A stretch of 64,000 nucleotides of DNA from contig NZ_CP150302.1 in the NCBI RefSeq assembly GCF_038051945.1, forward strand, positions 1,116,001 through 1,180,000, in the 5' to 3' direction. This DNA is from Paenibacillus sp. FSL H3-0469. Its GTDB lineage: Bacteria > Bacillota > Bacilli > Paenibacillales > Paenibacillaceae. Shown piece by piece: positions 23,600-46,461 of the stretch (within the stretch, counting starts at the first letter, position 1; the number at the start of each line of letters is the position of its first letter). The translations under genes were made by a program, and so were the position numbers. The notes beneath the pieces are model-generated. The model was given only the letters and a program-made list of their open reading frames with translations. It had not been told where the DNA came from and made no database searches.

Positions 23600-24157
23600 C
23601 TACAACTCATCATCCAGAGCGTCAGGGTCCAGATCATCGTAATCATAATTCTCGCCTTCAAAATCATAATCCTTGTCTTCCAGATCGTCACTCTGATCAC
23701 TGACAAACACGCGGAGCTTGGTCTCAGCCACCAGTTCCGCATCGAACTCGCGTTCCACGCGGAGTGTCACACTGCCTCCGCCCGGTGATACCCCGGCTTC
23801 CACACAATTGGGTTCCTGCGTTGCCTCCGCAGAGACCTGTGCCGTGGAAGCACGGTGTCTCGGGTCGAGGTACGACAATGGAATAAGCTCCACATAGGAG
23901 ACCGTTTCCTTGGCAACCTCGGTCTGCTTGTTTTTGTCGTACGAATACCAGATGTTCACATCATAGGTACCAATCACTTCGATTCCGTTCCCGGCGGCAA
24001 CCGCTTCGTACTGGTGGTTAATGATCCAAGCCCCCAGAATACTAGTCGGATGATGTGGCGGAGTCACGGTATGGGTTGCTGTAGAGAACTTACGACCTTT
24101 GCCGCAAATTGCCTTCGTAATGATCTCCCTTGTTTGACGTTTATGGCTTAATGACAT
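23600..24157 (-). CDS. cotE: outer spore coat morphogenetic protein CotE
   Basis: 185 residues from ATG at 24157 (GGAGGAGG 7 nt upstream). REIITKAICGKGRKFSTATHTV near 9-30, SSILGAWIINHQYEA-like segment near 39-53 (here TSILGAWIINH), DVNIWYSYDKNKQTEV near 67, QEPNCVEAGVSPGG near 112, and a very acidic C-terminal tail (from about 155). It organises the outer coat around the forespore. In Bacillus it lies between ymcA (ricA) and mutS. Confidence 0.96.
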   Translation of the reverse strand: MSLSHKRQTREIITKAICGKGRKFSTATHTVTPPHHPTSILGAWIINHQYEAVAAGNGIEVIGTYDVNIWYSYDKNKQTEVAKETVSYVELIPLSYLDPRHRASTAQVSAEATQEPNCVEAGVSPGGGSVTLRVEREFDAELVAETKLRVFVSDQSDDLEDKDYDFEGENYDYDDLDPDALDDEL

Positions 24158-41087: not shown

Positions 41088-42836
41088 TTGTTCTCCGTAC
41101 TCCGAAATCTCGGCTGGTTCTTCCGCCGGGAAAAAAGGCGCTATACTATAGGCCTCATCCTTCTTATTGTGGTAGGTGTGTTAGAACTCCTGCCTCCACG
41201 CCTGCTCGGCAACGCCATTGACGAAATCGTCACCGGTGCCATCACTGCAGGTTCACTCATGAAATACATTGGCCTGATCGTACTTATGCTGCTGATCATT
41301 TACTGGATCACCTACATATGGATGCATAAGCTGTTCGGGGGATCGAATCTGGTGGAGCGTCTGCTCCGCTCACGCTTCATGAATCATCTCATGACGATGA
41401 CCCCCGCCTTCTTCGAGCGTAACCGCACCGGGGATCTGATGGCCCGCGCCACCAATGATATCCGCGCGGTATCCGCCACCGTGGGCTTCGGGATGCTCAC
41501 CCTTGTCGACTCCACTGTGTATCTCACGGTTGTCCTGTTCGCTATGGGGTTCCTGGTCAGCTGGAAGCTGACACTGGCTGCCGTCATCCCGCTTCCGATG
41601 ATTGCGGTAGCCATGGTGTTCTACGGCAAAGCGATCCACGACCGTTACAGTCTGGCGCAGGATGCCTTCGGTGACATGAACGACCAGGTACTGGAATCCG
41701 TATCGGGCATCCGCGTCATCCGTGCTTATGTGCAGGAGCGGCATGATGAGAAGTGCTTCTCTGACATTACAGATGATGTATACCGCAAAAATATGGCGGT
41801 CGCCCGGGTCGATGCCTTCTTCGAGCCGACGATCCGCTTGTTCGTGGGCCTTAGTTATATCATCGCTCTGACCTACGGAATCTATCTCGTATTCCGCAAT
41901 CAGATTACGCTTGGCGATCTGGTATCATTCAATATGTATCTCGGGATGATTGTGTGGCCGATGTTCGCCATCGGCGAGCTGATTAATATCATGCAGCGCG
42001 GCGGCGCTTCATTGGAGCGGATCGACGAGACGCTGAATGCGAAGCCTGATGTCAAGGATGTGCCTCATCCGGTTCCGGTAGCCCAGCCGACTACCATCGA
42101 GTTGAAGGATGTAACCTTCCGCTATCCGACCTCTACCATCGACAATCTCAGCGGAGTCAGCTTGTCTCTCTCCCAGGGCCAGACGCTTGGCGTGGTCGGA
42201 CGGACCGGCAGCGGCAAATCGACGCTGCTGAAGCAGCTGCTGCATGAATATCCGGCTGGCACAGGTGAGATTCTGATCTCCGGTGTGCCGATCACCCAGA
42301 TTGCTCTCGACCAGCTTCACAGCTGGATGGGCTACGTGCCGCAGGAACAGATCCTCTTCTCCAAGTCCGTGCGCGAGAACATCCAGTTCGGACATTCCGG
42401 GGCCAGCGATGAACGGATCATGCAGGCGATTACCGCCGCAGCCTTCCAGAATGACCTCGGCACGTTGTCTGACGGGCTGGATACGATGGTTGGCGAGCGC
42501 GGCGTCTCCCTCTCCGGCGGACAGAAGCAGCGGGTCTCCATCTCCCGGGCCTTCATCGCGAATCCTGACATTCTGATTCTGGATGATGCTCTGTCTGCCG
42601 TGGACGCGCGGACAGAAGCGAAGATTATCGAGAACATCCGCGAGGAGCGCAGCGGCAAAACGACGCTGATCTCCACCCACCGCCTCTCGGCGATTGAGCA
42701 TGCCGATCTGATCGTTGTCCTCGAAGACGGGCATATTACAGAACAAGGTACACACCAGGAGCTGCTGGAACTCGGCGGCTGGTACCGTGAGCAGTTCGAC
42801 CGCCAGCAGGTTGAGAATAATCTGACGAATGAATAA
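41088..42836 (+). CDS. bmrC: heterodimeric multidrug ABC exporter subunit, BmrC-like
   Basis: 582 residues. TTG start with AAGGAAGGG about 7 nt upstream. Six-helix exporter domain then ATPase: Walker A GRTGSGKST near 372, signature LSGGQKQR near 480, Walker B ILILDDALSAVD near 500, in which the catalytic Glu is replaced by Asp, and H-loop THRLSA. A degenerate ATP site in one subunit is the hallmark of heterodimeric exporters such as BmrCD. It pairs with the next gene, whose site is canonical. Confidence 0.88.
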   Translation: MFSVLRNLGWFFRREKRRYTIGLILLIVVGVLELLPPRLLGNAIDEIVTGAITAGSLMKYIGLIVLMLLIIYWITYIWMHKLFGGSNLVERLLRSRFMNHLMTMTPAFFERNRTGDLMARATNDIRAVSATVGFGMLTLVDSTVYLTVVLFAMGFLVSWKLTLAAVIPLPMIAVAMVFYGKAIHDRYSLAQDAFGDMNDQVLESVSGIRVIRAYVQERHDEKCFSDITDDVYRKNMAVARVDAFFEPTIRLFVGLSYIIALTYGIYLVFRNQITLGDLVSFNMYLGMIVWPMFAIGELINIMQRGGASLERIDETLNAKPDVKDVPHPVPVAQPTTIELKDVTFRYPTSTIDNLSGVSLSLSQGQTLGVVGRTGSGKSTLLKQLLHEYPAGTGEILISGVPITQIALDQLHSWMGYVPQEQILFSKSVRENIQFGHSGASDERIMQAITAAAFQNDLGTLSDGLDTMVGERGVSLSGGQKQRVSISRAFIANPDILILDDALSAVDARTEAKIIENIREERSGKTTLISTHRLSAIEHADLIVVLEDGHITEQGTHQELLELGGWYREQFDRQQVENNLTNE

Positions 42837-42858
42837 CCCCATACAGGAGGTGTCACCG

Positions 42859-44952
42859 TTGACACAGAGTACAGGCAAACGTCTGCTGCAATATGCACTG
42901 ACCGCCAAAAAGACCTTCATCGCCGCCCTTCTGCTCCTTACGATCGGAGTAGCGGCTGAGCTGGCAGGGCCTTTTATCGCCAAGAGCATGATTGACAATC
43001 ATCTGCTTGCGATTGAGAAGCCCTACTTCCAGACAGCCTCGCCGAAGGATGCTGCGGAATATAACAACACTTATTACAAACGCGGTGACCGTTTTGCCGC
43101 AGGTGAAGCCAAGGGCCAGGAAGTCCGTCTGCTTCAGGCAGGCAGAAGCTTCTACTTCATCAATGAAGCTGTACCAAAGGCCGAAGGCGAGCGCAGCTTC
43201 ACGGACGGTAAGCTCCAGATCAAATATGGCGAGCAGACCACGGTCTATCCGGCCGTCAAGCTGTCGGCTGGTGATCTGTTCTCCTTCTACAAGCCGGAGC
43301 TTCCGGGAATCTATCAACTGGTCGCTCTATACGCCATGTTCCTTGTGATCTCTATTATTGCTGAGTTCGGCAAAACCTACTGGCTGCAATCGTCTGCCAA
43401 TCAGGTCATCCGCAAGCTGCGGACCGATGTCTATGCCCATATCCAGCGCCTGCCGGTCTATTTCTTCGATAACCTGCCTGCCGGAAAGGTAGTCTCCCGG
43501 GTAACCAATGATACAGAAGCGGTCAAGGATCTCTTCATTGCCGTGTTATCCAACTTCGCTACAGGGATCATCAATATCACCGGTGTCTATGTAGCCCTCT
43601 TCCTGCTGGATGTGAAGCTGGGACTGGTCAGTTTGTTCGTTGTACCGATTATTATTCTTTGGATCGTGCTGTACCGCAAAATCGCTACCAAATACAACAC
43701 GATCATCCGCTCGCGGCTTAGTGAGATTAATGCCATTATCAATGAATCGATTCAAGGGATGTCGATCATCCGGATTTTCCGCCGCCAGAAGCAGAGTAGT
43801 GCTGAATTCGAGCAGCTCAATGACGACTATCTGAAATATCAGAACAAAATGCTCAACCTGAACGCCTTCACCTCCCACAACCTGGTGAACTCGCTGCGCA
43901 GCCTCTCCTTCGTGCTGGTACTGTGGTATTTCGGCTTCGGCAGCCTGGACGGTTCAACCTTCGTATCGCTTGGCGTTCTCTATGCGTTCGTCGATGTTCT
44001 GGGCCGGATGTTCCAGCCGATTACGGGCATGGTCAACCAGCTGGCGAATCTGGACAGCTCAATGGTCTCCGCCGGCCGCGTATTCACGCTGATGGATGAG
44101 CCGGGAGAGCCGGTCACTGACGGATCGATGCCGCGATACAAGGGAAATGTCGTATTCAAGGATGTCTCCTTTGCTTATAAAAAGGACTTCGTCCTGCGCG
44201 ATATCTCCTTCGAGGCGCGCCCTGGTGAGACTGTCGCCCTTGTCGGCCATACCGGCTCCGGCAAAAGCTCCATCATCAACCTGCTGTTCCGCTTCTATGA
44301 TCCGCAGCAAGGAAGCATAACGATCGATGGGCAAAAGGTCAAGGATCTGCCGAAGCAATGGCTGCGCAGTCATATGGGCATCGTGCTTCAGGACCCCTAC
44401 CTCTTCACCGGTACCATTGCCTCCAATGTCAGTCTGGGTGACGAACGGATCTCAAGAGAGCGTGTCGAACGCGCCTTGCGCGAGGTAGGGGCCGATAAAC
44501 TGCTGGCCCATCTGCCGCAAGGCTTCGATGAACCTGTCATTGAGAAGGGCAGCACCCTGTCCGCCGGACAGCGGCAGCTGATCTCCTTCGCCAGAGCGTT
44601 ATCCTTCGATCCGGCGATCCTGATTCTGGATGAAGCCACGTCCAACATCGATACCGAGACCGAGAGCATTATCCAGCAAGCATTGGAGGTGCTGAAAAAA
44701 GGGCGGACCACCTTCATCATCGCCCACCGGCTGTCCACCATCCGCAGTGCGGACCAGATTCTGGTACTGCACCGGGGCCAGATCGTCGAACGCGGCAGCC
44801 ATGATGAGCTGATGGCACAGGGCGGCAGATACTTCCGCATGTATCAGCTTCAGCTGGGTGCAGGTGCCGGGAACGGCCCGGGCGAGCCGGCTCCGGAGTC
44901 CGGGGACTCTGCTTCTGCCGCCGGACTCCGGCCATCGCTGGAACAGATCTAG
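42859..44952 (+). CDS. bmrD: heterodimeric multidrug ABC exporter subunit, BmrD-like
   Basis: 697 residues from TTG at 42859 (AGGAGG 8 nt upstream); the ATG at 42829 overlaps bmrC but has no ribosome-binding site. Between the first and second membrane helices lies an extra-cytoplasmic insertion of about 100 residues (SPKDAAEYNNTYYKRGDRF to GEQTTVYPAVKL), a known BmrD feature. ATPase: Walker A GHTGSGKSS, signature LSAGQRQL, Walker B ILILDEATSNID with catalytic Glu, H-loop AHRLS. It should carry the active hydrolysis site of the pair. Confidence 0.9.
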   Translation: MTQSTGKRLLQYALTAKKTFIAALLLLTIGVAAELAGPFIAKSMIDNHLLAIEKPYFQTASPKDAAEYNNTYYKRGDRFAAGEAKGQEVRLLQAGRSFYFINEAVPKAEGERSFTDGKLQIKYGEQTTVYPAVKLSAGDLFSFYKPELPGIYQLVALYAMFLVISIIAEFGKTYWLQSSANQVIRKLRTDVYAHIQRLPVYFFDNLPAGKVVSRVTNDTEAVKDLFIAVLSNFATGIINITGVYVALFLLDVKLGLVSLFVVPIIILWIVLYRKIATKYNTIIRSRLSEINAIINESIQGMSIIRIFRRQKQSSAEFEQLNDDYLKYQNKMLNLNAFTSHNLVNSLRSLSFVLVLWYFGFGSLDGSTFVSLGVLYAFVDVLGRMFQPITGMVNQLANLDSSMVSAGRVFTLMDEPGEPVTDGSMPRYKGNVVFKDVSFAYKKDFVLRDISFEARPGETVALVGHTGSGKSSIINLLFRFYDPQQGSITIDGQKVKDLPKQWLRSHMGIVLQDPYLFTGTIASNVSLGDERISRERVERALREVGADKLLAHLPQGFDEPVIEKGSTLSAGQRQLISFARALSFDPAILILDEATSNIDTETESIIQQALEVLKKGRTTFIIAHRLSTIRSADQILVLHRGQIVERGSHDELMAQGGRYFRMYQLQLGAGAGNGPGEPAPESGDSASAAGLRPSLEQI

Positions 44953-45035: not shown

Positions 45036-45069
45036 ACACCCCCTGACGAAGGAAGGCATCAGGGGGTGT
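45036..45069 (+). terminator. intrinsic terminator of the bmrCD-like operon
   Basis: An 11-bp stem ACACCCCCTGA/TCAGGGGGTGT followed by CTTTCACTT, 85 bp after bmrD. Confidence 0.75.
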
Positions 45070-45076
45070 CTTTCAC

Positions 45077-45105
45077 TTGATATCAGAACGTTTGTTCTGT
45101 ATAAT
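45077..45105 (+). promoter_or_regulatory. promoter of the YcaQ-family gene with an internal LexA box
   Basis: TTGATA (45077-45082), a 17-nt spacer, TATAAT (45100-45105). The spacer carries CAGAACGTTTGTTCTG (45084-45099), which contains a perfect Bacillus-type LexA core GAAC-N4-GTTC. LexA bound there would block RNA polymerase, so expression should rise in the SOS response. Confidence 0.78.
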
Positions 45106-45138
45106 GGAGCAATACATATTATGGATGAGGTGAAGATG

Positions 45139-46461
45139 ATGATAACCTACAGTCTTAGCAAGCGGCAAGCCCGGCTGTTCCTGCTGCGCCATCAGCGGCT
45201 TGTCCCGGATGGATTGCCCGGCGGTAAGCAGAGCATCTATGACTTCGTCCGGCATGTAGGCTGTATTCAGTATGATCCGCTCAGCATAGCCGGACATAAC
45301 CACGAGCTGGTACTTCAGGCGAGAATCCCCGGCTTCGTGCCCGAGATGGCCAATGAGCTGCTATATAAGGACAGACTGCTGATTGACGGCTGGGATAAGA
45401 ACATGTCGATTTACTGTACAGAGGATTGGCCGTATTTCCAGCGGCGCCGGGAAGCTGCCGCCAGGCATCAGCATAACGAGGCTATGGCGGCCATGATTAC
45501 TCATGTCCGCGCGGAGCTGGATGCACGCGGACCGCTCTCTTCACTGGACTTTGCGAGCAAAGAGAAGATCGACTGGTCCTGGGCTCCGGCAAGACTCTCC
45601 CGGGCTGCTATGGAGAGCATGTACTTCTGGGGCGAGCTATCCATCCATCACCGGGTGCACACCCGCCGTTATTACGACTTCACTGCCAAGCTGCTTCCTC
45701 CTGAACTGCTTAGCGCAAGCGATCCTAACGAGACGCTGGAGCAGCATCACGATTGGTATGTGCTGCGCCGGATTGGCAGTATCGGCCTGCAATGGAACCG
45801 GTCCGGGGACGGCTGGCTCGGCATTGCAGGCCTGAAGAGTAAGGAGCGGACAGCATCTGTGCAGCGGCTGCTGGAGAAGGACCTGCTCCGCGAGGTACAG
45901 GTGGATGGACTAAAGCTCCCGCTATACATCCGCACAGCAGACCTCCCTGAGCTTGAAGCCGTATTGCTTGAAGATGATACTACGGGTGCAGATGAGTCCG
46001 CAGCAGGGTCTCAGGCTGGTAATAAAGGCGGGGCCGGTCATGCTGAGGGAGCGTCATCCTTCGCAGCGGCACTGGCTCCTCTGGACAATCTGCTGTGGGA
46101 CAGAGAGCTGATCCTACAGCTATTTGGCTTTCAATACCGCTGGGAGGTCTATAAGCCAGTGCTTGAACGGGAATACGGCTACTATGTCCTCCCCCTCCTC
46201 TACGGCGACCGCTTCATCGGCCGGCTGGAGCCGGTGATGAACAAGAAGACCGGCGTGCTGACCATCGTCCGCTGGTGGTGGGAGGACGGGGAGGCGCTTG
46301 AACGCACCATGCTCCCCGCGCTCACCGGAGCCTTCTCCTCGTTGCAACGCTCGACCGGAGCCACCGCGATCCGCTTCGCGCCGGATGTCGTTCACTCCTG
46401 CGGACTGCAGGAGCTGGAGGAGGCGCTGTCTGCTACAGCTACGCCTGTAAAGACAAATTAA
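45139..46461 (+). CDS. YcaQ/AlkX-family winged-helix DNA glycosylase
   Basis: 440 residues from ATG at 45139, with GAGGTG 6 nt upstream; three in-frame ATG codons compete. The HTH_42 family signature is present: RHVGCIQYDPLSIAG near 36 (the Q-Y-D triplet is the catalytic motif in the YcaQ-type branch) and the C-terminal REYGYYVLPLLYGDRFIGR near 355. A poorly conserved Ser/Gly/Ala-rich insert (about 275-300) precedes APLDNLLWDR. Such enzymes remove alkylated or crosslinked bases. The LexA box upstream fits a DNA repair role. Confidence 0.85.
   Translation: MITYSLSKRQARLFLLRHQRLVPDGLPGGKQSIYDFVRHVGCIQYDPLSIAGHNHELVLQARIPGFVPEMANELLYKDRLLIDGWDKNMSIYCTEDWPYFQRRREAAARHQHNEAMAAMITHVRAELDARGPLSSLDFASKEKIDWSWAPARLSRAAMESMYFWGELSIHHRVHTRRYYDFTAKLLPPELLSASDPNETLEQHHDWYVLRRIGSIGLQWNRSGDGWLGIAGLKSKERTASVQRLLEKDLLREVQVDGLKLPLYIRTADLPELEAVLLEDDTTGADESAAGSQAGNKGGAGHAEGASSFAAALAPLDNLLWDRELILQLFGFQYRWEVYKPVLEREYGYYVLPLLYGDRFIGRLEPVMNKKTGVLTIVRWWWEDGEALERTMLPALTGAFSSLQRSTGATAIRFAPDVVHSCGLQELEEALSATATPVKTN

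Follow-up and report, generated by a model that had tools for sequence, protein, structure and literature searches.

A predicted LexA operator at the promoter of a Paenibacillus gene for an AlkZ-like DNA glycosylase

Regulation in the closest described systems

The literature gives differing accounts of how AlkZ-like DNA glycosylases are regulated, with E. coli ycaQ looking constitutive and A. baumannii alkX being induced by a crosslinker (accessible text of PMC13303869). In the part of the E. coli study that is accessible, ycaQ was measured as uninduced by mechlorethamine or MMS (PMC7367128), whereas A. baumannii alkX is reported to be induced by mechlorethamine and species-specific regulation was suggested by the authors, the accessible text giving no LexA site for the gene (PMC13303869). 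As a damage-responsive AlkZ-like glycosylase, the A. baumannii enzyme resembles what is predicted here for a gene of Paenibacillus. A canonical LexA is not known from A. baumannii. The E. coli gene sits after lpxK, and the 250 bases upstream of ycaQ contain neither a GAAC-N4-GTTC-like site with at most one mismatch nor, with at most two mismatches, a CTGT-N8-ACAG site, the latter being the E. coli-type LexA consensus. Since ycaQ is not induced, its regulation differs from the control predicted for Paenibacillus.

The Bacillus LexA (DinR) box has the consensus CGAAC-N4-GTTCG in the accessible text of PMC4551915. Bacillus boxes and the Paenibacillus site described below have the GAAC-N4-GTTC core and the overlap with a promoter in common; they differ in the outer base, which is A/T in the Paenibacillus site (AGAAC...GTTCT) and C/G in Bacillus. 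An AlkZ-like glycosylase is not known to be among the SOS genes of B. subtilis, and PF06224 was not found in the B. subtilis control genome. A full-text literature search, with few subscription papers and no databases such as RegPrecise in its scope, brought up no paper that places an AlkZ-like gene under LexA. An earlier prediction of such control elsewhere is possible, and a Myxococcus gene, MXAN_6210, would be a lead if its product belongs to PF06224.

The promoter and the encoded glycosylase

The window, i.e. the whole stretch of 64,000 nucleotides that was analysed, is part of a 7.77-Mb single-contig genome of Paenibacillus, a soil bacterium. Two ABC-transporter genes, read as the ORFs 41088-42836 and 42829-44952, precede an inverted repeat, a promoter and the AlkZ-like gene. 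The repeat, read from the sequence as ACACCCCCTGA / TCAGGGGGTGT (45036..45069; 11-bp arms and a 12-nt loop), is likely a terminator between the transporter genes and the glycosylase promoter, and similar CCCCTG...CAGGGG repeats with a differing loop occupy the corresponding position in most of the named Paenibacillus loci. A promoter scan placed a -35 hexamer, TTGATA (45077..45082), and a -10 hexamer, TATAAT (45100..45105), on the forward strand. The combination TTGATA-N17-TATAAT (45077-45105) agrees with the consensus at 11/12 positions and ranked at the top of five matches in 3.5 kb. Its 17-nt spacer, TCAGAACGTTTGTTCTG (45083-45099), is filled in 16 of 17 bases by a 16-bp palindrome, CAGAACGTTTGTTCTG (45084..45099), with the perfect arms CAGAAC/GTTCTG, within which a motif search located the core LexA-type box GAACGTTTGTTC of the form GAAC-N4-GTTC (45086-45097). 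This confirms the arrangement described in the earlier note, a GAAC-N4-GTTC core in a larger palindrome within the 17-nt spacer of a near-consensus promoter. Further downstream, GAGGTG (45127..45132, forward strand) is the likely ribosome-binding site and has a purine-rich GGxGTG counterpart in orthologues. Because of this element and because orthologues align there, the ATG at 45139 appears to be the best-placed protein start rather than the first in-frame ATG at 45121, which gives a 446-aa reading. The AlkZ-like (PF06224, HTH_42) DNA glycosylase gene thus occupies 45139..46461 on the forward strand and would encode 440 aa.

The palindrome is very probably a LexA operator (SOS box) in the promoter of this gene, acting by occlusion and relieved upon DNA damage. 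LexA binding, occlusion and induction are inferred from the geometry of the promoter and standard LexA biology, and the substrate of the enzyme is likewise a prediction. LexA bound at 45084-45099 would cover the promoter spacer and block RNA polymerase; since the operator fills this spacer, repressor and polymerase should exclude one another. DNA damage would load RecA onto single-stranded DNA, leading to self-cleavage of LexA and a free operator. The glycosylase would then be produced together with other SOS repair proteins and would take out alkylated or crosslinked purines. Hence, the cell probably makes this repair enzyme as needed, when its DNA is damaged.

The protein matches PF06224 with 168.8 bits against a gathering threshold of 25.9 (E 3.1e-49; profile positions 1-315 of 329), and the genome has no other PF06224 gene. 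Among named relatives, those closest to the gene are from Paenibacillus, the best being P. silagei at 94%. The TfuAlkX structure 9zd6 was matched at E 1.2e-22, and E. coli YcaQ is 24% identical to the Paenibacillus protein. Besides PF06224, the Paenibacillus protein has both outer residues of the QxD motif, Q and D, and a loop tyrosine in common with E. coli YcaQ and with AlkX of A. baumannii and T. fusca. In residue numbers that follow the 446-aa reading (Q50, Y51, D52 and Tyr344), the catalytic Q50 and D52 of QxD are kept, with Q and D present in 134/134 aligned homologues, and so is the DNA-binding-loop Tyr344 (TfuAlkX Y326), a tyrosine in 133/134 homologues with one gap. Two other positions set the protein apart from YcaQ and AlkX, which have an aliphatic middle residue and an alanine where the Paenibacillus protein has Tyr and Met. 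The middle residue of QxD is Y51 (Tyr in 55/55 members of the window clade and Tyr or Phe in 128/134 homologues), whereas the YQL (YcaQ/AlkX) subfamily has by definition an aliphatic residue Phi in Q-Phi-D (accessible text of PMC9040887). Met95 stands where YQL proteins have Ala (Met in 104, Leu in 25 and Ala in 5 of the 134 homologues), a residue of the WH1 wing (A102 of TfuAlkX) that is described as highly conserved in YQL proteins in the accessible text of PMC13303869. As both the aliphatic Phi and the conserved Ala are replaced, a label as YQL/AlkX orthologue was rejected, and crosslink unhooking is a prediction weaker than that of glycosylase activity. 'AlkZ-like glycosylase' appears to be a safe label, with the function assigned at the level of the family. 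The term 'YcaQ-family' used in the earlier note therefore holds at the superfamily level, given the PF06224 match, and fails at the level of the YQL subfamily, given Tyr51 and Met95.

These differences are also seen in a tree. The proteins with Tyr or Phe in the middle of the motif form a Q[YF]D branch apart from five rows of other Bacilli homologues with an aliphatic residue and Ala, none of which has a box. E. coli YcaQ likewise falls outside this branch, but its own branch is so long (5.18) that its exact place is unsure.

Conservation of the box and competing explanations

Of 394 genomes of the family searched with the protein, 244 contained a match. The loci examined comprise 30 that were returned and the 80 next in listing order (110 in total), plus 26 loci from a named collection; a partial match (G200, from residue 120, 68% identity) was left out of the orthologue counts. 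The earlier note had named a search for the box upstream of orthologues in related genomes as a check on its proposal, and the outcome is positive: GAAC-N4-GTTC is located between -35 and -10 in 55/55 examined genome-collection orthologues with at least 60% identity. With the addition of 16 named Paenibacillus loci, some of them from species already among the 55, the box is in the spacer in 71/71 loci, compared with 0/71 for the reversed control. The 16 named loci span 144 kb and contain 16 boxes, one per locus, all at the glycosylase promoter. Going by the best placement of the script, the -35/-10 spacing in the 71 loci is 17 nt in 55, 16 nt in 12 and 18 nt in four. In a box-centred alignment of the 55 orthologues, the eight arm bases, GAAC and GTTC, are invariant (55/55; 2.0 bits per column), the central four bases average 1.14 bits and occur in 11 different N4 versions, and the upstream flanks average 0.27 bits. 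The -10 hexamer averages 1.67 bits per column and the -35 hexamer 1.21, with its TTG present in 55/55. The outermost pair of the palindrome is complementary in only 25/55 orthologues, and the distance from the box to the -10 hexamer is 2 or 3 nt. At one locus (L088, genome G173), promoter and box are found about 135 bases farther upstream than in relatives, with the box at -172, and the spacing of -35, box and -10 is intact despite this shift. The stretch between this box and the start codon looks like an insertion into the 5' leader.

Arms without a single exception in 55 orthologues and a nearly fixed distance to the -10 hexamer would be unlikely if the site were dispensable. They argue against the alternative that survives best, in which the LexA box is genuine and physiologically minor, the gene having a high basal expression and being effectively constitutive as in E. 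coli. This alternative, which we consider unlikely, can draw on the single box at the glycosylase promoter compared with several at lexA, on the near-consensus promoter and on the lack of induction of E. coli ycaQ; the centre of the spacer, however, would be an efficient position for occlusion.

The identification of the palindrome as a LexA operator also relies on the SOS genes of the same genome. Here, lexA is located 47 kb upstream of the glycosylase promoter, just beyond the window (256 bits against a cut-off of 111), and lexA was found in 100/100 genomes of the genus that were searched. The core GAACGTTTGTTC recurs as an identical 12-mer in the lexA promoter (G000:C1:1113766), beside several further boxes, and at least one exact box is present in 31/31 lexA promoters examined in the genus, including that of the genome itself. 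The motif is additionally found near the start of a YneA-like gene that is divergent from lexA (52.8 bits, below the model cut-off of 60), near the start of a YolD-like gene and some 270 bases ahead of a Y-family polymerase; recA and uvrB are each preceded by a form with one mismatch. The identical 12-mer, together with the box in all orthologues examined at 60% identity or above, supports the proposal of the earlier note that the glycosylase gene belongs to the SOS regulon. The 12-mer at lexA and the motif near the other SOS genes speak against assigning the palindrome to another repressor, be it phage-type, XRE or the winged-helix glycosylase itself, and we know of no other single regulator that shares the set of lexA, yneA, Y-family polymerase, recA and uvrB. 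Such an assignment is very improbable; in its favour are extra weak lexA-model matches in some genomes and the build of the AlkZ-like protein from winged-helix motifs (PF06224; fold described in the accessible text of PMC7367128), while the core of the site fits the Bacillus LexA consensus CGAAC-N4-GTTCG except for the outermost C/G (accessible text of PMC4551915).

Two further boxes were observed in this genome. One of them, CGAACATACGTTCT (L209:1498-1528; C1:4735916), is found some 19 bases ahead of a radical-SAM gene (TIGR03916) annotated as 'DNA modification/repair', which is likely another SOS member. The other, GAACATATGTTC (L211:1536-1624; C1:5120235), directly follows a TATAAT and lies some 88 bases ahead of a sigma-70-like gene, possibly encoding an SOS-controlled sigma factor.

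Counting the motif on its own was rejected as evidence, as the counts in both window and genome are at chance level. The window contains two GAAC-N4-GTTC matches against 0.62 expected, a number reached in 11/100 shuffles. Across the 7.77 Mb of the genome, 100 sites were counted, fewer than the 198 of the reversed control pattern. Several of the 24 RNNY-type genome sites fall within genes and are probably chance matches there. The second exact match in the window, GAACTCGCGTTC (23744-23755), was likewise taken as chance. With the bare motif at chance level, what goes beyond chance is the position in the promoter and the conservation. Accordingly, the weakest alternative, a chance palindrome in a promoter retained through shared ancestry alone, agrees with the bare counts but has a negligible probability and appears already contradicted by the conservation pattern, given that flanks and central bases diverged around invariant arms, that 16/16 occurrences in the named loci sit at the glycosylase promoter and that boxes recur in other clades at other positions.

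Promoter architectures in more distant relatives

For a distant set of 55 further loci with 40-60% identity, the box was sought between -250 and +30. An exact or one-mismatch box is present in 26/55 loci against 1/55 for the reversed control, and the stricter RNNY form in 24/55 against 0/55; coding-window controls gave 0, 0 and 6 of 55. In a tree of 134 rows, from which L017-L032 (16 named loci, likely duplicates), L220, L221, L225 and L226 were left out, the spacer-type box corresponds to one clade (55/55; support 99). A second clade has an exact box in 7/7 loci, at or downstream of the -10 hexamer in the printed cases, and a third has an exact or near box in 19/22, the printed cases being downstream or upstream of a -10-like hexamer. 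In a fourth clade of 26 homologues, 23 have no box between -250 and +30, and an exact box was present in 0/10 more remote loci examined, two of which are taxonomically Paenibacillaceae. Three architectures can be distinguished: the box within the spacer in the window clade, the box at or downstream of the -10 hexamer in the second clade, and, in the third, the box downstream of the -10 hexamer or before a co-oriented DinB-family gene. Given this frequency and the differing positions across clades, predicted LexA control is common in the AlkZ-like family, yet it is neither universal nor bound to one architecture.

Within the third clade, two pairs of loci from families of different orders (L222 and L142; L223 and L153) are about 91-92% identical in DNA across promoter and box. 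As this identity reaches through the promoter and the box, it suggests that gene and operator were passed horizontally, and recently, between families. At two related loci (L225 and L226), a DinB-family gene lies immediately upstream of the AlkZ-like gene and has a one-mismatch box some 40 bases ahead of it; the two genes may form an SOS repair operon. At L142, a 67-codon leader ORF overlaps the start of the glycosylase gene, and similar ORFs are present in several loci of the third clade; a GyrI-like reading was dropped, as Pfam gave no hit at thresholds up to E 0.1.

Taken together, it seems reasonably likely that Paenibacillaceae and some other Bacilli have, in the Q[YF]D branch, a damage-inducible repair system distinct from the characterised YcaQ/AlkX proteins. 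In this reading, installation or relocation of LexA control gave rise to at least three promoter architectures, and the operator of the third clade travelled with the gene between families. The branch represents an uncharacterised part of the AlkZ-like enzyme family. For the regulation of these enzymes, direct repression by LexA offers a concrete and testable mechanism; the prediction applies to a large Paenibacillus group and comes up again in relatives. The SOS response classically takes in nucleotide-excision genes (uvr), and the control predicted here would tie glycosylase repair to it as well.
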